Positions 9,905 to 35,947 of a DNA stretch of 35,947 nucleotides are shown in pieces. Position 1 is the first letter of the stretch; every line of letters starts with the position of its first letter. The notes below the pieces were generated by a model that did no database searches, was not told where the DNA came from, and was given only the letters and a program-made list of their open reading frames with translations. A program made the position numbers and the translations under genes. The stretch comes from Acanthamoeba lenticulata. Taxonomy: Eukaryota > Discosea > Longamoebia > Acanthamoebidae. Where the stretch lies: the NCBI GenBank assembly GCA_002179805.1, contig NAVB01000353.1, positions 1 through 35,947 of the forward strand, written 5' to 3'.

Positions 9905-12900
9905 TTAAGGGCTCTTGCCGGCGAGGCTCGGGCGCAGCTTGCGGGCGACCTCGAGCACGGTGGGCTGGAAGACCATCGACTCGTGGTCGCCGCCGACGTC
10001 GACCACCTCGACGTCCTCACAAAATTGGTCCCACCCGAGCGTGCGCGCCCGGAGCAGCGGGTCGTCCACGCCGCGGATGTCGTTCTCGCCCGTCGTGCGG
10101 AAGAGCGTGACGCGGCCGCGCAGCAGGCGCGTCGACGGCGACGACGACGACGGAGCATAGGCGCGCGAGAGGAGCTCGCTGTGGCGGATGTCGCGCTGGA
10201 AGCGGAAGAAAAAGTTGATGGCGACCGAGGGCGGGACGAGCTCGAGCCCGTTGCCGTCGATGACCTTGGCCATGACGTGCAGCAGCCGGCCGTCGGGGCT
10301 CAGCGGCGCCGTCTCGTCGTAGCCGACGTCGACCCCGAAGCCCAGGTACTGCTTGGCCCCGCGGCACAGCATGCAAAACGCCAGCGCGTCGGCGTCGTAG
10401 GCCTGCAGGTAGGCCGCGTCGTAGGCCGGCGCTCGTCCGTCGAGCAGCAGCAAGTTGACTTCGTCGTTGGCCGCCTGCAGCTGCCGCGCCATCTCGTAGG
10501 CCACCGTGCACCCAAAGGACCACCCGGCGATCTGCGGCATCTCAACCTCGTGAGCCCGCGTGTGTGCGGTGCGCGTGTGTGCGGTGCGGTGCGTGTGTGT
10601 GCGGTGCGCGTGTGTATGTGCGATGCGTACGTTGTAGAGGCCGGAGCGGTGGACCCGGCGGATGGCGGCGACGTAGTCGGCGGCCATGGCCTCGATCGAG
10701 TCGTAGTCGCGGCGGGGCTCGAGGCCGTAGACCGGCTGGTCGGGCCCGAGGTGGTGCGCCAGCGCGCCGTAGCACACGGAGGACTTGAAGGCCGGGTGGA
10801 CGACGAACAGCGGCAGGCCGGCCCCGCGCGTCTGCAGCGGCACGAGCGGCGAGGCCAGCGACGACAGCAGCTGCCGGGCGCCGCCGACGTTCATGCGCTC
10901 GGCCAGCAGGCGCTCGGCGGCCGCCGCAGGCCGACAGGCTTCGGCTTCGTTCAGGGGGCAGGCCGACGCCGAGGCCAGGCTTGCTGGCTCCTTAAGGAGG
11001 GCGCTGACGTCATCACAGCTGTCGCGCCCGCCGTGCTCGTCGCCCTCGCTGGCCTTGTCCGACGGGCCGGCCGACGACGTCGCGAGGTCGCGCCGAGCCT
11101 CGGCCACGCAGACGGCCAAGTGGCGCACGGTGGAGGCCGAGAAGATGACCGAGAACGGGAAGCGGACGCCAAACTTGCCCTCGAGCGCGCCGATGAGGGA
11201 CACGCCGAGGAGCGAGTTGCCGCCCAGCGCAAAGAAGTCGTCGTCGATCCCGACGGGCGACACGTGCAGGATGGACTCAAAGACCTCCACCAGCGTGCGC
11301 TCCTCGGCCGACACGGGCGTCGCGTACTTGAACCCGACCTCGTGTTGGCTGCGCGTCGAACACGTCAGCATGACGTCAGCAACAGTGCCACGCAGGCGTG
11401 ACGTCAGCATCAAAGACGGGACGACGTGGAGACGTACGCCGAGCGGGTGGGCGAGGGGAGGGCCGTGCGGTCGACCTTGCCGTTGGGCGAGAGGGGCCAC
11501 CGGGCGAGGACCATGAAGTGGGAGGGCACCATGTAGGCCGGGAGGCGCTCCTCGAGCAGCAGCCGCAGCTCCTGCACCACGCGCGCCTTGGCCTCGCGCG
11601 CCGCGTTGTCGTCGTCGTTGTCGTGGACGTCGTCATCATCGGCGGCGGTGGGCTTGAGGATGATGTAGGCGACGAGGTACTTCTCGCCGCCGGCGTAGTC
11701 CGGGTCGCGCGCCACGACGAGGCACTCCTTGACGCCCGCGTGCGTGTAGAGGCAGTTCATGATCTCCTCCAGCTCGATCCGGTACCCGCGAATCTTGACC
11801 TGGTGGTCCACTCGCCCCAGGAATTCTGCTCCAACAAATAATCAGTAAATAAAATAAAATATTTCAAAAGAAAAAGAAAAAGGAAGTCGCATGTACCGAG
11901 CGTGTCGTCGTCTTTGTAGCGGAGGACATCGCCGACGCGGAACATGGTGTCGCTGGTGTGGGGCACGAGCGCCTTGAACGGATTATCTACAAACGCGCGC
12001 ACCGTCATCTCCGCGTCCACGTAGGACCCCACCCCTGTTGTCGTTGACGTCGAGTCCCACCAACCATTTTTGCTGATTAGCACAGCCAGAGGGGAGCAAT
12101 TGCTCTGTCGAGGGACACGAACCGTCGCCGGCTATGTACAGTTCGCCCAGCACGCCCGTGGGCACCAGCTGCCGGTAGGCGTCCAGCAGGAAGAACTGGC
12201 TGTTGTCCTCCTTCCCGCCTGCGGCCCCGCACGCACGCAGGTCAGCGGCAAAGGCCAGGGCCAATGGTGGAAGGCCGAGGCCCAGGGCAGAGAGGGCGTA
12301 CCGACGGGGATGGAAGAGCCGCGGGCGTGGTCGGCGGTGACGCGGAGGGCCGAGGCCCAGACGGTGGTCTCCGTCGGGCCATACATGTTCCACAGGGCGG
12401 CGCAGCGCGGGAGGAGCTGCCGCGCGAGGTCGCACGTCATGGCCTCTCCGCCGCACCAGATCCGCAGATGCGCCGCGTCGCCTGCCCAGCCCGCCGCACT
12501 GCGCAGCAGGTATTCGCGCACGTGTGAGCCGCCGCCAAGGAGAAGAAGGGCGCGAGGGCTTCATCATCAAGGGCATTTTGGTACCAGAGCATGCGCCACG
12601 AGGCCGGGGTGGCCTGGATGATCGTGATGGGCTCGCCCGCGGCCAGCCTCTCCTCGAGTAGAGCCTTGAGGCGGAAGCCGTCTCGCTGGATGGCCGACGA
12701 GATCATGACGACCTTGGCGCCGCAGGTGAAGGGCAGGACTAGCTCCAGCTGGGCGATGTCAAACGAGAGCGTGCTGACGCCCAGGATGACGTCGCCCTCG
12801 GCCATGCCCGGCCGGGCGCGGATGAACTGGAACTGGTTGATCAGGCCCCGGTGGCGGATGCGCACGCCCTTGGGCTTGCCCGTCGACCCGCTAGTGTAGA

Positions 12901-15900
12901 TGACGTAGACGAGCTGGCTCGCGTCGAGCTCGGCCGTGACGTGGGCCGGCACCGTGCAGTCGGGGAGGCCCGCGAGGGCGTCCACCACGGCCGGGTCGTC
13001 CAAGCACAGCGCGTCGCACTCGCCGGCTGGGCAGGTGTCGACACGCTCGATCAGCTCTCGCATGAGGATGAAGGCTTCGGGGAAGAGGGGACGAACCGTG
13101 GCCGGCAAAGAGCACGTCCGCTTTGGCGCGCTGGGTGATGATGCTGGCCACGCTGGCGTCGTTCACGATCTGCCACACGCGTTCCTTGGGCGTGCTGCGC
13201 AAAGAATGAATTAATTCCTCATTTTCATTTATTAATATTTTCGAAAAAGGAGCGTACTCGGGGTCAAGCGGGAGGTAGGCCGCGCCGGCCTTGAGAACAC
13301 CAAAGATAGCCACCACGACCTCCACGCATCGTGTCCTGCACATTCCCCACATTTTTACAATAAATAAACAAATGTAAAAGAGCGAAAACGAAGACGAAGA
13401 CGGGGTCGTACATGTAAATGGCGAGGAGGGAGCCCTTGCCCAAGCCGCGGGCCAAGAGGTAATGCGCCACGCGATTGGCTCGTCGGTCGAGCTCGCCGTA
13501 GGTGAGGACCTGGCCCAGCTCGTGGAACATGAGGGCCACACGGTCGGGCGTCCGGGCGGCCTGCTCGGCAAACAGCTGCTCGACCCGCACGTCGGTAGGA
13601 TAGGACCGCGCGTTGTCGTTGTGGGCCACGACGAGCCGCTGGACCTCGTCCTCGGGCAACAGCCGCAGCGCGTGGACGGCGACATCGGGCGCCGGGCAGG
13701 CGGCCAGACTGCCGAGGAGAGTCGACAAATATGTGGCCAAACGGCGGGCGTCCTGCGGGCGCCACAGGCCGGTGTCGTAGCTCAGCGCCAGCTCGACGCT
13801 CATCGCGGCCTCAGCGGTCGTGGCCAGCAGAACGAGCGGGTACTGCCAGCTGACGGCGGCAGCGGCGGTTGTCGAGCCGAGCAGGTCGCGCGTGTAGTCG
13901 TCTAGCACGAAGAGGCTGTCGAACAGGCGGTACTCGGGGCCGACCTCGCTCTGCTGCTGGATGGCACCGAGGCTGAGTCTTGACTGGCAGCGGGCTTGCT
14001 TGCTGCGCACGGTGGCGTCAAGCCGGGCAAGGAAGGCATCGAGCCGCACACCCACGCCATCGGCGCCTCGCATTTCCGGACTCGCGTAGGCGCTTTCGTC
14101 AAAGTCGGCGACGGTGGGCATCGGCGCGCGGACGCAGCCAATTGGTTGCGGATGGTGGTCAGCAGCAGCGGGCAGGAGCGAGCCAAAGAGGACGCGCTTC
14201 TCGCCGCCGCTGCAGCGCTGGAGCAGACAGGCCCACGCAGCCACGAGCACAGTCTCCAGGCCGACTCGGTGGCGCTGAGCCAGCGCGCGCAGGTGGTCGA
14301 GCTGATCGGACGTCAGCTCGACCTCAACTACTGCACGCCGCTGTCCGCTGCTGGGCTCGGCCGCCGGGCTGGCCTTGTAGAGCGGCGTCGGGGCTCGAAT
14401 GTCCCGCAGCAGTTCCCGCCAAAATCGCTTCTCCTCCTCGTCACGCTTGGCATCATCCTTGAGCTCAGGCTCCGGCTCGGCCTCGTCGTCCGACGCGGCC
14501 AGGTCATTGTTTTTGTCGACACGCCCGCCGGTGCGGACAAGGCGCATAAATTGGGCCAACACGGCGGCCGCGGAGCGATGGTCGAGTAGCGCGGCGTGGA
14601 AGGACCACAGAAGCTTCATACCTGCGTTCTGTCGCACGAGCGTGACGCGCAGCGGATGCTCCAGCCGGCGGAGGTCGAACCCGGCCTGAGCGTCGGCCGC
14701 GAGCAGCTCGGCCCACTCGCGCTCCTGCTCGTCGGCCGACTTGGCCGACCAGTCGACCTCGCGGAAGGCAAACGGAAGGCTGCGGCTCGGCAGGACCTGG
14801 TAGATCGACGACGTCGATGTCGAGGTCAACGTCGTTGTCGATGAAGCTCGCGGGGGCGGCGCAGGCGAAGCGCCGTTGCCGCTGCCGCCGCGCCGGCGAG
14901 CGCTGGCAGGCTTGACCCGCAGCAGGAGAGTGCGGAGCGCCGGGTAGCATTGGAGCAGCGTCTGCCACATTGCGTGGACCTCGGCGGCCGTGAGTGCGGC
15001 GGACGGGCCTTGCTCCTTGTCGCCTGCGGCTCGCACGTCGCAGCACCACTGCTGGACCTGCAGCGCGTCCGAGGCCTGGAACACGTTCTGCTGCTGGACG
15101 GTGAGCGGCCGGGCGGTCCATCGATCGTTGTGCATACGTGGCTGGTGCTGACGTGGCGTGTGCCCATTGGCCAGTTCATCGGCCTGCGCGGCATCCGCCT
15201 CGGGTTCGGCGCCTAGCGGGGTGATGAGCTCGTGCTCGTCGAGCACTTGGAACTGCAGCGTCATGTCCGAGTCCACAAGCGAGGCCTCAATGACCTTTAA
15301 ACGGTCCTTCTCCTCGTTCGTCCTATCGCCTTCGGTCTCGTAGCCAAACATCTCGTTGAGCAGTCCCGTCAGCTCTTGCATGGACAGCTCGCCCGAGATG
15401 ATCATATCGCACAGGTCCTCCAGCTGCGTCTTGTCGTCGAACATTTCCGCCAACTTACCTCCTGTTGTGAAGGAATTATGAATATTTTAAAAATAAAAGA
15501 ATGTAATAATGAATACAAAAGAAAATGAATATAAAAAAGACCTTTGTCGCCGTTCATGAGGGACTTGAGGAGGGCGGTGTCTGTGATGAGCCGCTTGATG
15601 GGCGCAAGGTTCATCAGTTGATCGAGCACGCTCGGGTTGTCCATGAGCCGCTCGAGCAGATGGCTGTAGGAGTCGCCCGAATCGGCCCCCGGGTTGGCCG
15701 CCAGCGGCGCGACGTCCGCCGCAGCAGTCATGGCGGCGGCCTCGGGAACAGGCTCCGCCGGGGCCAGCTGCCCCGCGGCGCGCTTGCGGGCGTAGTCGGC
15801 GCAGTGGGCGCAGATGGCGACCACGGCCTCTAGCGGCGGCTTCACCTGAAACATGTTGACCAGCATCGGGATGAGGGCCCCTGTGTGTGTTCCGTGCACG

Positions 15901-16667
15901 ATCAGCCAACGTTGCCAACCATGATCAGTCGTGGAATGACAAGGCGGACCTCGCGGGTTGACGTGGACGATGTGGACCAGCTTGCATGTGGTGTCGGTCT
16001 CGCGGATGACGCCGTAGCCGGTCACCGACACATGTGCGCGCACGACGCCGGCGGCGGGCGGGCTGGACGGCACGTCGATGCTGCGTGCCGCTGTCACAAA
16101 GTCGAAGCCTGCGTGGTTTTCATTGTTGTCAACAACGAACAACAAAATTGGCATATTTTTAGGTACAAAATTAAAATAATAAAATGGAAATGGTAGCAAA
16201 CCTGCAACGTGGCGAGCAGACGTTTCGAAGGTGGCGAGATCGCGGTTAGCGATGGGCCCCAGGGTAGGGAACGTGAAGTGAAGGATGCTGTGGTTCTCGT
16301 CGAATTGGCGCAATATTGTCTTGGCGGTAAAGACAGAAGGCGCAACACGCTGAAGGAATTCGGGATCGTTGAGAAACGAGATGAGCGTGTCCGCATCAAT
16401 TGCAACGCGCGTCTCGAAACGAAGGAGATTGATGGCTGAGTCAGGTCGGCGCTTCTCGTAGGCAACGATGCCTTTGTATTCTTTGGTGCGCTTCCAGCCC
16501 AAACGCGGGCTCGGCTCCTCCTGGGCCACGTCAATGAAGGCCCGCAGGACCTCGCGCCCCTTGGCCACGAAATCCTCGACCGAATCAGACTTGACCAGGT
16601 CAGGTGTCGCCTTCTGGACACGTTGGACAGGCGCAGATGTGCTGAATCCATTGAAAAATCTGTCCAT
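9905..16667 (-). CDS. START domain-NRPS fusion (START-C-A-PCP-TE), single-module peptide synthetase
   Basis: One multi-exon gene of roughly 1,900 residues from the ATG at 16665-16667 to the stop at 9905-9907. Residues about 50-320 form a START domain (GWKRTKEYKGIVAYEK; RAHVSVTGYGVIRETDTTCKLV; VNPRGALIPMLVNM). A helical linker follows, and an intron at about 15540-15463 joins it in frame to the NRPS. The condensation domain (about 15100-13650) carries WSFHAALLDHRSAAAV, so the HHxxxDG motif is altered. The adenylation domain (13600-11470) shows core motifs YTSGSTGKPKGV, NMYGPTETT, GRVDHQVKIRGYRIELEE and SPNGKVDRTALP. The carrier domain has DDDFFALGGNSLLG, with its phosphopantetheine serine at 11213-11215. 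The thioesterase has GWSFGC (Ser codon 10517-10519) and GGDHES (His codon 9983-9985). Joins at 13412/13335 and 15870-15960 restore conserved family sequence. The product and substrate are not known. Confidence 0.88.
11100..11300 (-). other. Peptidyl carrier (thiolation) domain of the NRPS
   Basis: The segment DDDFFALGGNSLLGVSLIGA matches the carrier-protein signature (LGGxS). The serine at 11213-11215 is the expected 4'-phosphopantetheine attachment site. The domain sits between adenylation motif A10 (about 11470) and the thioesterase. Its intact serine argues that the synthetase is functional. Confidence 0.88.
15402..16667 (-). other. START domain portion of the NRPS fusion
   Basis: This region encodes the N-terminal START module and helical linker of the NRPS gene. 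Read without splicing, it continues into the AT-rich intron and stops at 15402, which could lead an automatic caller to report a separate 421-residue protein. The intron (about 15540-15463) has a GT start (GTCTTT), a very AT-rich body and a CAACAG acceptor. After splicing, the frame passes directly into KLAEMFDDKTQLEDLC and the condensation domain. START domains bind a single lipid in a hydrophobic tunnel; here the bound lipid cannot be predicted. Confidence 0.75.
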
Positions 16668-20328: not shown

Positions 20329-21302
20329 TCAGTAGTAGCTCTTGCCATCGCACTCGGGGTAGCACTGGCGCTCCTTGGGGCACCACTCGCCAGAGGGCAG
20401 GTACTTGCCGTACGAGTCCGGGTAGCAGCCGTTGCTGTCGGCGTAGAGGACGAGGCCATAGCCGACCTCCTTGGGGTAGCAGCCGCGGCCATCGCGGTAG
20501 AACCAGGTCTTGCCGATCTGGCGCGGGCAGCAGCCGTTGCCATCCTTCCACTGGTAGCCGGGGCACTGCTTGTTCTCCTGCGTCGTGGTCTTGGGCGGGT
20601 AGTACTGCGTCGTGGTCTTGTAGTCCTCGGTCGTGGTCTTGGGCGGGTAGTACTGCGTGGTGGTCTTCTCCTCGCTGGTGGTCTTGGGAGGATAGTACTG
20701 GGTCGTGGTCTTCTCCTCGCTGGTGGTCTTGGGAGGGTAGTACTGCGTGGTGGTCTTCTCCTCGCTCGTGGTCTTGGGAGGGTAGTACTGCGTGGTAGTC
20801 TTCTCCTCACTGGTGGTCTTGGGAGGGTAGTACTTGGTCGTGGTCTGCTCCTCGCTGGTCGTCTTGGGCGGGTAGTGCTGGGTCGTGGTCTTGTAGTCGT
20901 GCTTGGGGCGGATGCACTGCTCATAGCACTTGCGATCATGCGGGCAGTACTTGCCAGCCTCGAGGTATTCGCCCTTCTCGTCCGGGTAGCACCTGCTCAT
21001 CCGCCAACGAGCCGGGGGTCGTCAGCCGCTGTCCAGTTGTTATTGTTTGTGGCCACAAGAGGAGCGTACCCAGAGCCATCGGCGTAGAAGACGCCGCAGC
21101 CGACGTCCTTGGGGTAGCACTTGTTGCCGTCGCGGTAGTAGGCCATGTAGTTGATGATCTCAGGACAGCAGCCCTTGCCGTCGGGCCAGTAGCCGCCTTC
21201 GCAAGGTCCGCCGTAGCTGTAGGAAGAGGAGCCGTAGTCATCGGCCAGGGCGCAGGCGGTCAAGGCCAGGCCCAGGGCCACAACGAGAAGCCAGCGAGTC
21301 AT
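20329..21302 (-). CDS. Secreted cysteine-rich cyst-wall lectin, Leo type with repeat linker
   Basis: Two exons, 21070-21302 and 20329-20992, joined in phase. A clear signal peptide (MTRWLLVVALGLALTACALA) precedes two homologous cysteine-rich domains flanking a repetitive linker. The C-terminal domain has eight cysteines, in the order C, CC, C, C, C, C, C (from QCPGYQW to CYPEC). The N-terminal domain keeps the same pattern plus a ninth cysteine in GCG, where the C-terminal copy has GYG. Paired motifs are GKGCCPE / GNGCCPR, YYRDGNKCYPK / FYRDGRGCYPK and ADGSGCYPD / ADSNGCYPD. This two-domain, 8-Cys plan with a Thr/Lys-rich spacer is that of the Leo lectins of the Acanthamoeba cyst wall, which bind cellulose. 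Cellulose binding by this protein is inferred from that resemblance. Expression during encystation is expected but no control site is visible. Confidence 0.82.
20565..20895 (-). repeat. 45-bp tandem repeats coding for the lectin linker (7 units)
   Basis: Seven in-frame copies of a unit centred on YPPKTT separate the two cysteine-rich domains. The central units read YPPKTTSEEKTTTQY. Units 2-5 are identical in protein; the last two vary (TTEDYKTTTQ, TTQENK). The array is rich in Thr, Tyr, Pro, Lys and Glu, consistent with an extended, possibly O-glycosylated spacer. Near-identity of the central copies at DNA level suggests recent expansion or homogenisation. Confidence 0.85.
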
Positions 21303-21763
21303 TGCTGCTGATGTTGGATGTCGTCGTTCACAAGTCGTTAACTCAGTTCCGAACAGTGTCGATTCGGAAGAAGGCTGTTCTTCTTGTTGGTTGTTGCTCG
21401 AGCAGTGAGAGGATGAGTGAGAAACGGAGAGGCCAGACCGCGCCTTTTGTGGCGGTCACCGACCAATCACGGCACGGCGCTCGAATAGTTAAGGACGGCA
21501 CGGGCAACCGATTTTTCGTGGTGGATCACACGCACGGCGGTTGCTGCGCGTGTTGGTGAGCGAGGCCACTACGGGTCCCTTTCAAAAATATCGAACTTTG
21601 TGTGCGCAAAGCAACCTGGGCAGCTTGCACGGCACGCCGCGTGTGAGCTCCTCCGTCACGGGCCAGGGCAGCCCGCAAGGCGTGGTTGTCCTCTTGGGTT
21701 TTCCAGAAAGTCCTCCCCGCCTGCGGCTTCAGGGCCGGCTGCCACCAAGCTTGGGTTCAAGCC
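21303..21763. other. Upstream region of the lectin gene and 3' flank of the methyltransferase
   Basis: About 460 bp with no convincing gene. The half nearest 21303 should hold the lectin promoter (minus). The part near 21763 follows the methyltransferase stop. Short open frames on both strands show no domain features. No repeat or RNA gene was seen. Confidence 0.45.
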
Positions 21764-28956: not shown

Positions 28957-31900
28957 TCATGGTGCGCCTTGGCTCAGCCAATTCTTGGGGTCGAGCCTGC
29001 CCTCGCTGGGTACGCTGATGATCCGCTGTGCCTTGCGCACGTGGACCGCTTTGGTCTCTGCGCGACGAATAATTGTTTTAGTCATATTATTGTTTTTTTT
29101 AAAAAAAAAGAATAATAATGATAAAAGGACGTACCGACAACGGTGGTGTTGACCGTCACGTTTCCCTTCCTGCCATAGACGCGATACCTGTGATACAGAC
29201 GCGACCAAATCATCATACGCATGAGATGAGGGGGCTCTGCAAACGCCACGGCATCAACGACGGTCGAGGGCTGCCGCACCATTCGTCGAAGCGCATGTAG
29301 CCGCCGCCGACCCGGATGATGAGGAAGCCGTTGACCACGTTCATCCGCATCACCTTGTCGCGGATCTTGTAGACGCCCGGCTTGCCCCGCACGCGCTTCA
29401 CGTGCAGCTCGTCGGGCTTGATCTGCTTCTCCCGCATGAACCGCCGGAGCATGGTGCTCACCGAGGGCTTCTGTATCATCACACACGCCATCATCATCAT
29501 CAGCATCGGCATCAGCTGCACACGCAAGAACGCGAAGCGGTTCGGCGTACCTTCTTGGACTTGGGTGTCGTCGATGTTGTGGACGACGACCGGCTGGACC
29601 GTCGGCGCTTAGTCGAGGGCGATGCCTTGGGCGTGCTCGACGTGATCGACGAGGACGTCGACGTCGACGTCGAGCTGGACGACGAATGCAGCGAGATGGA
29701 GCGAGAGCGTCTGCGGACGAGCTTGCGTGCGGCCGAGAGTTCCTGCTTGCTCGGGAGCGGAGCTTTCCGTCGTTGTCGCTGTCGTCGCGTCGATGGATCG
29801 CCGCCATCGCTCTCTTCGTCCTCCCTCCTTCCCTTCTTCGTCGTCTCGCTCTCCTTGGCCTTGTTTTTGGCGCGCATCATGGGAAGCGACAATCGCTTTT
29901 GGCGCCGCTCCTCCTCGTCGATGACGGCCCGCCTGCCTCCACCTCCTGGCCTGGTGGACACTCGGGCGCTGCTGCTGCTTAGGCTGCTTCTGCTGCTTCG
30001 GCTCTTGTTGGTGCTGCTGCTGCTACTGAGGCTTCGACTGCCCGAACCGGCCGCCGCGTTCTTGGCCGTGCGCCGGCTTGATGACGATGACGATGACGAC
30101 TCCTCGGCTGCACCATCGCCTACTCGCTTCCTCCGTCTTCGCGCTTCGCTTCCCACGTCCTCGCTTTCGCTTTCGTTCTTTCTGGACGATCGTCGCCGCA
30201 GCTGCTGGGCTTCTTCGCTCTTCTTCTCCGCCTCGGAGTCGCTCTGGGAATTGGTGCGCTGCAGGGGCCGCCGCGACATCCGCAGACTGCTCCGAGGCAA
30301 GAGCCGAGCTCGCGCCGCGGCGTCGTCGGCATCGCTCCAGTCGAGTACGTCGTCTTCCCCGCTGTCGTTCTCCACCTCGCTATGGGGAGCGGTGAACGAC
30401 GGGCCGAGCGACCTGAGCGACCGACGTCGGGGCAGGTGGCCAATCCGCCGCGCGATGCTGTTTTCGTCGCTCCAGTCGAGTTCATCGCCGTCAGCGTAGT
30501 CGCTGTGTTGGTAGAAATCGTGTTCATCGGCACCGGAGTCTTCCCCGTCGCTCTCGTCGCTCGGGGCGATGCTGGAGCTCAGGCTGTTCAGTTCGCTGTC
30601 GTCGCAGTCGGTGCTACTGAAGAACTCGGTTTCGGTCTCTTCCTCCTCTTCTTCCTCCTCTTCCTCCTCTTCCTCCTCGTCACCATCATCGTCGTTGCCT
30701 TCGCCGTCCTCCTCTTCGCCTTCGCTCACATCCTCGCCCTCGTCTTCGTTACCATCCGCAGCATGCGCCTCATCAGCCTCAGCCTCAGCCTCAGCCGCAA
30801 TCCGCCAGTCCTCGACTGAATCGCACTCGTCTTGGTCATCGTCGGCGTGCAGGCACGGCTCCTCTGCTACGAACAGCTCAGCCTTGGGCGCGGTCGCGAA
30901 CTCTCCCGCGGAGTGTGTTTGACTCGCCTCGGGGGCGATGACGTCCTTCGGGACGGGCTGAGCTTCCATCGCCCGAGACTCAGGTGCTACCGCGACACGC
31001 GGCTCGTAAGACTCTGGCCGGGCCTCGCCTTGCCGTGGCGTGTGCTCGGCCATGTGTGTGTGGTCAGAAGGGACCGGAGCAATCGCGACGTCGGTCCTCG
31101 AAGGCTCAGCCAGAGCGATCTGCTCCTCTTCCTCTCGTTCACCTCTGTGCATCGCGCGCTCGCCAAAGTCAGGGTCCACCTGCTCGCTCTGGCTCTCCTC
31201 CACCTGTACGCCCTCGCCCTCGTCTTCGTCATCTCCCTCATGATCCTGCTCCTCATCGCCATCTACATCAGCATCGCTGCTGTCGTGCCCACCATCTTCC
31301 TCCTCGTCGTCCTGCCTGTCATTCACTTCGTCAACCTCCTCTTCCTCCTCCTTCTCTTCCTGCTGCCGCGTAGTCTCCTCGCTTTCGAGGTCGCTCTCGC
31401 CCGCTTGAGATGTCGCTTCGTCTCGTCGTGACTCGGCAGCTTCTGTTGGTCGCGCGGTTTCGGTCCCATTGAGTCGCTCTGCCACGTCCGCCATTTCGAC
31501 TGTGCGGACATCATTCCCTGCCTCAAGTTCCTCCTCGTGCTTGTGCTCGACCTTGTCCTCTCCTTTGTACTTGGGCTCATGCTCGAGCTCGAGCTCTTGC
31601 GCAGGATCGTCCTGGGCATCGTTCCCAGCCTCACGCTCGGGTTCGGGCTCGCGCTTGAACTCAGGTTCGACCTTCGGCTCGGGCTCGAGACTGTGCATAG
31701 CCTTATCTTTGTTTTCGGCGTCAGGCTTGTGCTCGGGCTCAGGCTCAGGTTCGAGCTGCTCATGTTCGAGCTCGTGATCGGGCTCGTGTTCGCGCTCATG
31801 TTCGGGCTCGGGCTCGGGCTCAGGCTCGTGTTCGCGCCCGAAATCGGGCTCGTGCTGAAGCTCGTGCTCGTGCTCAGTCTCGTGTCCGCGCTCATGTTCG

Positions 31901-34900
31901 AACTCGGGTTCGTGCTCAGGCTCGAGATCAGGCTCGTATTCGCGCTCGTGCTCGGACTCGGGCTCGTGTTCGCGCTCGTGTTCGGACTCGGGCTCAGGCT
32001 CGAGATCAGGCTCGTGTTCGCGCTCGTGCTCGAGCCCGAACTTGTGCTCGGGCTCGGGCTCGGGCTCATGCTTGGATTCGTGGTCGCAGTCGTGCTTGTG
32101 CTCGCCCTCATCCTCCTCGGGCTTGAGCTCATGCTCCTCCTGGGGTTGGTGTTGGGGTGGTTCGTTCTCCTCAAGCTCGTGCTTAGGTTCCTCATGCTCG
32201 AGCACAGGTGTGAGCACACCTCCTCCGCCTTCTTCGGTTTCATCACCGCTTTGCTCGACCTTCCAGCGAGGTGTCTCGCCCTCCTGTTGTGTTCGTTCCT
32301 TGTCCTCGTCGGGCTTTCGCTCTTGGCAGAGTATCGCAGCCGCTGGTCGGTCGCCCTCGCCCTCGCCCTCACCCTCGCCCTCGCCCTCGGGCCTCGGCGA
32401 CGGCACCAGAAGGTCCTCGGCGCCCTTCTTAGCTGCGTTTGTTGAAGGGCTCTGCCGGACGGCTTCGGGCTTCGCGGCCTCACCGCGAGCGTCCTCAGTC
32501 TCGCTTGGGATGATAAAGGATCGAGCAGGTGATGCTGGCCTGTCGACGCCCTCTTCGTCGTTGTCGGCCAATCGCTCTTCGAGCTCCTCCGCGGCGGCGC
32601 GGGTGATTTCCTCATCGTGATCAAGTTCACCGGCGTCGGCCGGCTGCGGCACATCGTCGAGGTCGTCTTCCTGGCTCTCCCGGAACTCGTTGTTGGCCTC
32701 GGCTAGCTCATGCTTGAGGCCATCAGGTTGAACCTCGTAGTGATGTACCTCCTCGTTCCGGACGTGATGATCCTGCGCCATCGAGTCATCATCGTTCTCC
32801 GGCAGCTGTGGCTTGCGCATGTCCTGCGCGTCAGTCTCCTGCAGGGCACACGGCGCAGCCCGCACAGGAGATACCGAACGAGCTGCTTCGCCGCCACCAA
32901 CACGGGCTTCGTCATCCTCGTCTTGGTGTTCAGCGATAAATTGATCGCCGTCGCCTACAGTTGCGTCGTCCACCTCTGCCGCCTCGCTAAGCTCGGGCTC
33001 CCCGCTGGCCCCGACCGCAGCCGCCACGAGGACGTCTCGCTCAGGCATCTCGTCGATATGTGGCCGCTCACGCGCGGGCGTCGGCGATTCCTCCTCGGGT
33101 GGCGCATCGCATGCCTGTGTGTCCTCCTCGCCTTGGCGCCAGTGTTTGGCCACCTCGTCCGTCTCCATCTCGTCGGGCTCATCGTCGCGCTCCAGCTCGC
33201 CAGCTTCCGCCGTGCTTTCACTCGCGTCCTCCTCCTCGCTCGATTCCTCCACCTCCTCTTGAACTGCAACCGCACCCCCGTCGTCCTCCTTTTCACCCCG
33301 GTCCTCTTCTTCCTCCTCATTGTACTGGTTCTTGTCGTCGCAGTCGTGCTTGTCCTCGTCACGACCGTAGTCGTGGTCGTGGCTGTGACGACCGCCCTTG
33401 GCAGCGATGGCACGCAGCCTATCCTTGGGCATGTTCTCCTCTCCTTCCTTCTTCTCCAGCCGTAGCTCTTCTTCTTCTCCTCCTTCTCCTTCTTCCTCGT
33501 CCTCTTCGTCCAGGTCCTCCTCGTCCCTCTCCTCTTGCGCCACCAGTCCGTGCTTCTCGATGGTGGCCGAGGTCGGATGGTGTGTGGCGCTTATCGCTCG
33601 CTCTCTTTCGGCTCGCCTTGGTTTGACGTCGCCATCGCCGGTTACGTCACGGTGTTCGATGGTCGAGCCGTCAGTCTCTGTACGTTCTTGTGGAGGCGTC
33701 ACCGCCTCGTGGCCGTCTTTTCTCCACGCAAAATCGTTCGTGCCGGCTCCTTCCTCCTTTTCGTCCTGTTTGCCTCGCCTTCGTTCTTCTGCCTTCTCCA
33801 CAGTGGGCGTCACTGTGGGCATGGCCGTGGCCGTGGCCGTGGCCGTGGCCGTGGGCATGGACGTGCCCGTGATTGTGGGCGTAGGCGTGACCATGGGCAT
33901 GGGTGTGGGTGTGGGCATGATGGTTGGCGTGACGGAAGACGTCACTGTGGGTGTGACTGTTGGCGCAACAGCTGCAGAGGCCTCTCGGGTGACCAGGGCA
34001 GCCCAGGCCCGTTCGTACCATGGCGCTCCCGAGGATTGGGCCTCTGCTTCCGGCGCCGAGACCTCCTCGTCCTCCTCGTCCTCCTCCTCGTCTTCCTCTT
34101 CCTGCTCCGACGACTCGGAGATGTCCTCTTCGCCTTCATCATTGCTCGAGGCGCCACACGTGCCCTCGGCAGGTTCGTCATGCGAGCGAGGAAGGACCTC
34201 CGTTACGTGTTGCGCCATTTCCAGCTCCTCGTCTGCCTCTTCTTCACGGTCCGCCTCCGGTTCGTCGTCGTCACTCAATTGCTCGTCCTCGACATCTCCT
34301 CTTTCACCCTCCACCTTGTCACGCCTCGGCGGATCCTCTCCTCCACGTTCTTCGAGACGCGGCGGCACGTCCTCGGCTCGCTCCTCGCGAGCAAGCGGTG
34401 CTGCATCGTCCCGATGGTCATCCTCGAGGGCCTCATCCTCGAGATGTCGCCGTAGCGGCTCGTCCACTTCAGCGTGCTGGTGCGGCATGGCTTCAGCCCG
34501 TGCCGGCAGCTCCGCGGCCGGCCTGGAATCAGGCCCGCCTCGAGAAAGCTCAGCCAGTTGTGAGGAGGCATCTGTGCTTGACCGCTTCGGCATGAGCTCC
34601 TTCAGCTGGTCTTCGGTCGTCTGTGTCTCACTTGCCTCTTCCTTCTCTCTGCGCACCGGCAGAGGCATCTGCGCGGCCACGTCCTCGTGTTTCGCTTCTT
34701 CCTCGTGTTTGTCTCGCTGCTCGTCCGTCCGTCGGGCAGGCTCGCGGGCCTCCTCCTTCGTGCCCGTTGCCTTTCCTCTGGCCTTGATGACGACCGACTT
34801 GCGCTTGAGCTTCTTCTCAAACTTCTGCAGTTCGGCCTCGAGCAGGCCCTCCATGCGCTCCAGCAGCCTCTCTTCCAAAGCCTTGGTTTCCGCAGCAAAG

Positions 34901-35823
34901 TCGCTGGTCTTGGCCTTTTGCTCTGAAGCCGATCTGGCACTGATGCGCTGCTGCTTCCGTTCGAGTTCGTCGATGTCCTCTTCCTCGTCGTTGTCAGAGC
35001 TCTCGGTAGCCTCGGCGGAGGACCAGCTGGCGTGCGCCTTCACGAACTCGGCGCCTTCATCGTCGGCGCGCAAGTCAACGTGTTGTGAGATTGCGTCGTC
35101 GGGCCAAACAAGCTCGTCTTCACTCCACCGTGCCTCTTCCTCTTTTTCTTCTTCCACTTTGACGTCGGCGGCAACTTTCTCAAGTTCGTTGTCATCCTCG
35201 TCGTCTTCGTCTCGGGCGAGGTGGAACCACGCCAGAAGGAGGAGAAGCGCGAGGATGACCATCAGCAGGAAGACCAGGCCGTCCTCGGCCCGCGGCCCGA
35301 GCCCGGGCAGCACCAGCCGCCGCCCGAGAAGGTCGATCTGGAGGTCGTGCATGTAAAGGCCCATCTTGCCGCGGCCGCTCACCGCCAGTCCGCGCACCAC
35401 GCCCGTCGCCAACGCCGCCCAGGCGAGTATCGCCGCGAGGTAGCGCCAGGCCCGACGGCCGGGCACTGCCGGCCGGGCATCGTCGCGGCGCTGTAGCAGC
35501 GCGGTGTCGCTCAGGAAGCGCAGGAGCTGAGCCTGCCACTCGGTCGCCGCGACCGAGCGCCGGTGAAGCCGCCGCTGCTCGGCCTCGAGACGCCAAAAGC
35601 GCTGGAGGGCTATGGCCTGTGCGTCGCTCAGCCGCGCCCGGCCGCGGGAGGGCCACAGAAGCCGCACCAGGCGTCGGATGCGGGCGCGGTCCTTGAAGGT
35701 GGCCGCCGCACGTCGATGTTCGACGCCGAACGTGCGCGCCAGGTGGCGGCCTAGCGTCTCCTCCGTTTCCGGGACGCTGGGCCGCAGTGCGGAGATAACT
35801 CGCGTGCTGCTTTGTCCCGCCAT
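28957..35823 (-). CDS. Giant acidic low-complexity protein with N-terminal membrane segments and C-terminal GAR (GAS2-related) domain
   Basis: The large first exon is open from at least 35901; I prefer the ATG at 35821-35823 (MAGQSSTRV) because the longer frame begins in a C-homopolymer that is probably UTR. The N-terminal 140 residues are Arg/Leu-rich and helical. Two hydrophobic segments follow: YLAAILAWAALATGVV and GLVFLLMVILALLLLLAW (about 35440 and 35260). About 1,500 residues of acidic Glu/Asp-rich low-complexity sequence come next, with Glu-Pro-Glu-His repeats, a Thr/Pro stretch and coiled-coil-like parts, then an Arg/Ser-rich basic tail. Small downstream exons add KPSVSTMLRRFMREKQIKPDE, KVMRMNVVNGFLIIRVGGGYMRFDEW and YRVYGRKGNVTVNTTVV, ending NWLSQGAP (stop 28957-28959). 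RVGGGYMRFDEW matches the GAR signature of microtubule-binding cytolinkers. A membrane-to-microtubule linker is inferred. The organelle is unknown. Confidence 0.75.
30298..30495 (-). repeat. Two copies of an LDWSD-(A)R-LPRxSLR motif
   Basis: DELDWSDENSIARRIGHLPRR (about 30437-30495) and DVLDWSDADDAAARARLLPR (about 30298-30355) are two spaced copies of a conserved-looking motif inside otherwise low-complexity sequence. Both have an acidic lead-in, the invariant LDWSD, an Ala/Arg helix and a basic LPR(R/S)SLR end. This suggests a selected short linear binding motif. Confidence 0.6.
31590..32110 (-). repeat. Glu-Pro-Glu-His-Glu low-complexity repeat tract
   Basis: Imperfect repeats of short units such as EPEPEPEHEREHEPD within the acidic protein. 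At DNA level they are CTCGGGCTCATG-like on the plus strand. Unit length varies (12-18 bp blocks), typical of expansion by slippage or unequal exchange. Stretches of EHEREHEP recur at several points between 31760 and 32040. Confidence 0.8.
33815..33965 (-). repeat. Thr/Pro/Met-rich repeat tract in the acidic protein
   Basis: GTGGCCGTGGCC-type hexamers on the plus strand encode runs such as TATATATATAMPT and PTPTPMPMVTPTPT on the minus strand. The tract interrupts the acidic region and could be an O-glycosylated or flexible spacer if on the luminal side, or simply neutral slippage sequence. Confidence 0.7.
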
Positions 35824-35947
35824 CCCGCTTGCGAGCCGCTGCAACAACGAACGCGTCAAGCGAGTTTGGGGGGGGGGGGGTAACGAGAAAGAAAGCGACA
35901 TGTGGAGGCCGAACCTGGACCTTGCAAGAGGAAGATGCCCTCTTTGT
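35824..35947. other. 5' flank of the acidic GAR-domain gene, with a G homopolymer
   Basis: Contains a run of at least 11 G on the plus strand (about 35868-35880). It is the likely 5' UTR or promoter of the minus-strand gene. An ATG at 35899-35901 is in frame with the downstream protein through the homopolymer, so length changes in the run would break that longer form. Confidence 0.4.

Follow-up and report, generated by a model that had tools for sequence, protein, structure and literature searches.

Much is known about NRPS modules and about START domains; a chain in which they are joined was not found described. The 35,947-nucleotide stretch of Acanthamoeba lenticulata DNA analyzed here (hereafter the window; contig NAVB01000353.1 of a 48.5-Mb assembly of 1825 contigs) raises the question whether a single gene encodes such a chain and, if so, what the chain could do. 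The first-pass annotation had read a START domain, a linker and a C-A-PCP-TE module in one spliced frame, and this was borne out by the gene model, by Pfam and by a full-length relative, P0001. As outlined in Table 1, the gene lies on the reverse strand. Its ATG is at 16667 and its stop ends at 9905, and the 1931-aa frame has no internal stop. The model contains 12 introns, all GT-AG and between 63 and 99 bases long. For eight of these, intron 3 included, the length is not a multiple of three, so that splicing at intron 3 is needed to maintain the frame. A separate observation concerns intron 12 (window 10532-10630, reverse strand, 99 bases), which consists mostly of a CA-rich microsatellite and is open in frame; when left unspliced it would add 33 residues immediately N-terminal to the TE active site. 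Pfam recovered START, Condensation, AMP-binding, AMP-binding_C, PP-binding and Thioesterase in this order, every one above its curated cut-off, and the START match lies in the N-terminal part of the protein, where it had been placed.

Table 1. Coordinates of the START-NRPS gene, its parts and the neighboring START gene in the window, with Pfam E values
Feature	Position	Strand	Evidence and remarks
Whole START-NRPS gene	9905..16667	(-)	Gene model; 13 exons, 1931 aa
START domain, residues 49-245	15771..16523	(-)	PF01852, E 1.6e-10 (whole protein), 3.2e-12 (START piece searched alone); spread over exons 1-3, interrupted by introns 16201-16109 and 15949-15881
Conserved linker, residues 275-385, interrupted by intron 3	15271..15683	(-)	86% identity to P0001
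Intron 3, join of START part and NRPS part	15462..15541	(-)	GT-AG, 80 bases, 19% GC
Condensation (C) domain, residues 433-930	13636..15129	(-)	Condensation, E 4.4e-18
Altered C motif HAALLDH for HHxxxDG, residues 610-616	14578..14598	(-)	
Adenylation (A) domain, residues 945-1485, interrupted by eight introns	11345..13593	(-)	PF00501 (AMP-binding), E 1.2e-76; AMP-binding_C, E 6.1e-07; TIGR01733
Carrier (PCP) domain, residues 1495-1570, GGNSL attachment site	11090..11317	(-)	PF00550 (PP-binding), E 2e-13
Thioesterase (TE) domain, residues 1641-1931, GWSFG/LLLLDG/GGDH	9908..10879	(-)	PF00975, E 1.2e-20
Stand-alone START neighbor, 247 aa	17088..18233	(+)	PF01852, E 1.9e-17; model read by eye

It could be argued that a START gene and a neighboring NRPS gene were wrongly joined, since the join falls in an AT-rich stretch of 80 bases. 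However, this stretch, intron 3, resembles the other introns of the gene and its removal is required by the frame, and relatives of the protein bear directly on the matter. In the whole-protein search, 8000 candidates were scored, giving at least 368 proteins at E ≤0.001, of which the best 120 were examined. The best match, P0001, has 1974 aa, shows 70% identity along the entire query and has the same set of Pfam domains, START included, in one frame; START was absent from the remaining 119 matches listed (best 120 of at least 368). The order C-A-PCP-TE in one chain was found in both the window gene and P0001. Of the 6099 bases of the P0001 contig, the frame would occupy 5925; given the 12 introns of the window gene, and breaks in other sequences at the same places, the simplest view of this contig is that of a spliced transcript. 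The alignment is free of gaps at all 12 predicted splice joins, that of intron 3 among them, and the unbroken run from START to TE is a strong argument against two genes, refuting them unless the P0001 contig is chimeric.

Further sequences bear on the same join. A search with residues 30-440 gave P0001 as the single match (6961 candidates, 0.55 to 1.75 times 1931 aa in length), and a two-sequence START-linker profile, for which the best 8000 candidates were scored, gave two matches, P0121 (231 aa) and P0122 (230 aa), each roughly half identical. Homology to P0122 stops exactly at intron 1. P0121 starts at exon 3 and has insertions in the variable post-START stretch and at the place of intron 3, and its frame continues from START exon 3 through the latter insertion into the linker, thereby spanning the suspected join. 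Both look like genomic reading frames, belonging to one or two more distant relatives. The continuity of START and linker is thus found in at least three sequences, two of which also show the joining of this part to the NRPS. In total, a single full-length relative, covering START through TE, came out of a word-based search of 5.77 billion proteins; this count depends on shared five-residue words, so that remote or unlisted eukaryotes may be missed. Among viral contigs, 23 stretches matched the search pattern and none of these encoded a START-NRPS relative. On the basis of P0001 and P0121 the two-gene reading was rejected as extremely improbable. There was no sign of separate START and NRPS transcripts, judging from P0001, which is continuous across the join, and the anatomy is almost certainly that of one eukaryotic gene encoding START, a conserved linker, C, A, PCP and TE.

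The two full-length proteins also allowed us to compare the conservation of the individual parts. Identity was 85% for START, 86% for the linker, 82% for the A domain, 91% for the PCP and 84% for the TE, and 63%, with 59 gap columns, for the C domain, which is thus the least conserved catalytic domain. The remaining stretches showed 52% (N-tail), 71% (pre-C spacer), 39% (PCP-TE linker) and 21% (post-START stretch). The identity of START and linker is on a par with that of the catalytic parts, indicating that they are kept like working parts.

START domains bind membrane lipids. When the START piece was compared with the PDB, matches were found to STARD10 (2.2e-9), 3QSZ (STAR-related, 5.4e-7), STARD6 (0.00025) and the START domain of ACOT11 (0.0026); a two-sequence START profile left the first four PDB matches unchanged and gave E 0.017 for the ACOT11/BFIT2 START. 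Structure prediction of START, run on the window frame without removal of introns 1 and 2 and with an alignment of four rows, reached a pLDDT of only 35, too low to be of use. In a search of the amoeba's own genome, the linker was located only in the START-NRPS gene. It matched no Pfam family above the cut-off; a ubiquilin-like match (E 0.074) fell short of the cut-off standard, so that a ubiquilin-like identity is not claimed, and structure comparison hardly reached the second half of the linker. Of note, a gene for a stand-alone START protein is located head to head with the START-NRPS gene, their start codons being about 420 bases apart. The protein shares 26% identity with the fused START (E 2e-20) and is not part of the START-NRPS enzyme.

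The A domain contains YTSGSTGKPKG, NMYGPTE, FRVGD, GRVDHQVKIRGYRIE and the NGK Lys, as read in the gene model, and these core motifs define the NRPS adenylation family; against TIGR01733 it scored 360.6 bits (cut-off 317.4). The textbook glycine code is DILQLGLIWK, and the literature search did not find this literal code together with glycine. In both the window gene and P0001 the pocket code is DILQWGMVWK. Among the 22 A domains that score best after P0001, 20 have a pocket that begins with DILQ, and two of these 20 diverge strongly later in the code. A midpoint-rooted tree of A domains was built with 270 leaves, comprising the gene model and the matches aligned over 430 columns or more (269 of 278). 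In this tree, P0001 and the window gene pair with each other (support 1.0) within a clade of 30 leaves (support 0.994). Of the 28 DILQ domains in the tree, 27 belong to this clade; support for the nearest single neighbor of the pair was only 0.367. Among solved structures, AB3403 (4ZXH) was the best match to the pocket region, being identical at seven of the nine code positions covered, and LgrA the best match to the whole protein, the fit being best over its second C-A-PCP module. A table in a review lists 4ZXH/4ZXI and DhbF (5U89) with Gly and LgrA with valine and glycine, and one passage explains that the glycine pocket of DhbF is shut off by a Trp, which is bonded to a Gln (PMC11253843). 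By position, Q1201 and W1258 occupy the places of this Gln and Trp. Because the A domain falls in the DILQ clade and its AB3403 match is listed with glycine, it is predicted to activate and load glycine. All organism names given among the listed whole-protein matches are bacterial, many entries being nameless and eukaryotes perhaps few, which makes a bacterial origin of the NRPS chemistry likely. Passages of the Acanthamoeba castellanii genome paper describe many laterally transferred genes with added introns, and the history proposed for START-NRPS would fit this.

The module had also been called complete, which holds for the domain order and not for the C-domain motif. In both full-length proteins, HAALLDH (HAxxxDH) replaces HHxxxDG, the second His being Ala and the Gly being His, whereas the other 11 of 13 aligned C segments read HH (nine HHxxxDG and two HHxxxDD). 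An unaligned word count over all proteins of the set gave 202 HH...DG and four HH...DH, and was kept as background only, because words lying elsewhere than in C domains are counted as well. Structure comparison indicated that the C-domain fold is retained, with matches that include starter C domains solved with C8-CoA, His mutants of RzmA among them. According to passages in PMC8097023, the primary catalytic role of the central His is debated, and modified motifs are commoner with small acceptors, so the window C domain may still work. As far as the motif can tell, the missing second His counts against plain condensation with the lipid as acyl donor, the weight of which was lowered, and a role of the lipid as acceptor or as allosteric ligand would be the better reading.

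Downstream of the A domain, the serine of GGxSL is present in the PCP as GGNSL, and the TE motifs GWSFG, LLLLDG and GGDH align with the TE of Pks13, thus providing the Ser-Asp-His triad that carries out TE catalysis. The TE is also related to that of AB3403 (1.3e-18). We then considered which partners the genome offers, using a family search that runs exon by exon and scores the best candidates only. Three matches to the PPTase family were found. Condensation matches were confined to the START-NRPS gene and contig C471, where the A-domain exon best fits L-aminoadipate-semialdehyde dehydrogenase (3.4e-45, below the whole-protein cut-off, as expected for one exon), so START-NRPS is the only C-A-PCP-TE gene found in the genome by this search, and it was found once. 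Several other family matches came as near-equal pairs, on contigs C1342/C36, C588/C825, C1021/C8, C575/C1063 and C270/C1051, suggesting uncollapsed haplotypes or recent duplication. A 22-base primer for Acanthamoeba 18S had no match in the genome at up to 2 mismatches, a result that carries no weight if the assembly lacks the rRNA genes. On another contig (C675:860-9004), an open frame of 3199 aa matches the carrier domain twice and perhaps encodes a large polyketide- or fatty-acid-type synthase. The neighboring frames that were scanned in the window (WD40, glycerol-3-phosphate dehydrogenase, PALP, DcpS_C, BTB, methyltransferase-like) include no evident partner. Two further stretches of the window have an unusual composition. 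Cys-rich frames at 20329-21455 (reverse strand) contain several TTTQYYPPKTTSEEK-like repeats and resemble a secreted or wall protein; Pfam gave no match in this repeat frame. At 29512-35946 (reverse strand), a 2144-aa, Glu/Asp-rich open frame with many EPEPEHEREHEPD-like units runs past the window end.

How could these parts work together? We tentatively favor a one-chain lipid-glycylating enzyme, in which the TE would pass a glycyl group to a lipid held by START. The A domain would adenylate glycine, a cellular phosphopantetheinyl transferase would arm the PCP so that glycyl-PCP could form, and the C domain would no longer condense and would serve as a structural platform. START would hold one lipid, a phospholipid, sterol or similar, and the TE would move the glycyl group onto a hydroxyl or amine of this lipid, giving a glycyl-lipid. 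This is preferred because the module is predicted to load only glycine and has a full-triad TE beside an altered C domain, so that an acceptor is required, and the START-held lipid was chosen because the chain has one further conserved pocket, which is of the lipid type. Against it stands that the TE can simply hydrolyze. More doubtful still is the wider scheme, in which bacteria-derived NRPS chemistry with a non-catalytic C domain would glycylate the lipid of its own START domain and use neither a tRNA nor a separate acyltransferase.

The closest rival, which we consider rather unlikely, takes START as an allosteric sensor: the enzyme would make a simple glycine product and be switched by lipid binding, relayed by the linker. 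Multidomain START proteins such as THEM1 are described, in passages of PMC10182070, as relaying ligand binding and tuning activity, and in view of such descriptions a regulatory role fits equally well. The START of ACOT11/BFIT2 is indeed a relative, although a weak one by the E values given above, and the conservation of the linker, which equals that of START, would suit a relay. Yet a sensor leaves the glycyl group without an acceptor. Third, and less probable again, comes an N-acylglycine synthase, whose altered C domain would join a fatty acyl group, START-delivered or from acyl-CoA, to glycyl-PCP before release by the TE. The intact C fold, its matches to the C8-CoA starter domains, RzmA mutants included, and the debate on the His role and on small acceptors (in the passages of PMC8097023) would all permit this, but both full-length proteins carry Ala and His where the 11 other C segments keep HH at the first of these sites, and no catalytic domain of the chain is less conserved. 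It seems improbable that the protein is a glycine carrier or tailoring enzyme, with glycyl-PCP used in trans by a partner and START as a membrane tether only. The binding of START domains to membrane lipids and the lack of another C-A-PCP-TE gene among those found in the genome would agree with a tether, whereas the full-triad TE in the same chain, and neighboring frames that offer no evident partner, would not. Glycylation of the START-held lipid by the TE stays our preferred, if provisional, reading.

If this is true, the gene would represent a new way to make aminoacyl-lipids or, should START be the sensor, a lipid-gated NRPS; in either case one gene physically joins amino-acid activation, with glycine as the predicted substrate, to lipid sensing or supply. 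We know of no earlier NRPS that is gated by a lipid. It is likely an enzyme of a bacterial type that was acquired by a eukaryote, gained many introns and was remodeled. The first-pass annotation knew of no characterized START-NRPS enzyme, and the open-access literature agrees with this: it yielded no description of a START-NRPS, subscription papers, supplements and outside preprints being beyond the scope of the search, and no such protein for START domain with adenylation domain or for Amoebozoa with peptide synthetase. In the text excerpts returned, 'START domain' beside NRPS terms was only a reference title or referred to starter C domains. No START-NRPS appeared among the titles and abstract openings of the Acanthamoeba matches listed, and the main text of the Acanthamoeba castellanii genome paper has no occurrence of 'peptide synthetase', 'nonribosomal' or 'non-ribosomal'. 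Among the papers listed for aminoacyl-sterol terms, one names ergosteryl-3beta-O-glycine a single time, and the others matched only through the short word 'ERGs'.

Known systems resemble individual parts of this chain. STARD10 binds phospholipids; it is the best solved START match (PDB 6SER, 2.2e-9) and is not fused to an NRPS. The termination modules EntF and SrfA-C are not known to have a lipid-binding domain, and the AlmE system consists of separate proteins and is not known to include START or TE. According to the review excerpts, EntF and SrfA-C are Ser and Leu enzymes and the A domain of AlmE activates glycine for lipopolysaccharide modification (PMC11253843), which gives a precedent for NRPS-type glycine activation in lipid modification. 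THEM1/ACOT11 is, like START-NRPS, an enzyme-START fusion, as described in passages of PMC10182070, but it has START at the C-terminus and acyl-CoA thioesterase domains, without NRPS chemistry. AB3403 (4ZXH/4ZXI) of Acinetobacter baumannii has the C-A-PCP-TE order in common with our protein, as its review entry states (PMC11253843), and shares with it the seven of nine covered pocket positions and the TE relationship (1.3e-18). It is a bacterial chain of 1320 residues without START or linker, and since it is called uncharacterized in a passage of PMC6668435, its product gives no guide. Measured against these systems, the NRPS module would be the known component of the enzyme, and the conserved START accessory domain and the altered C domain would be what is new.
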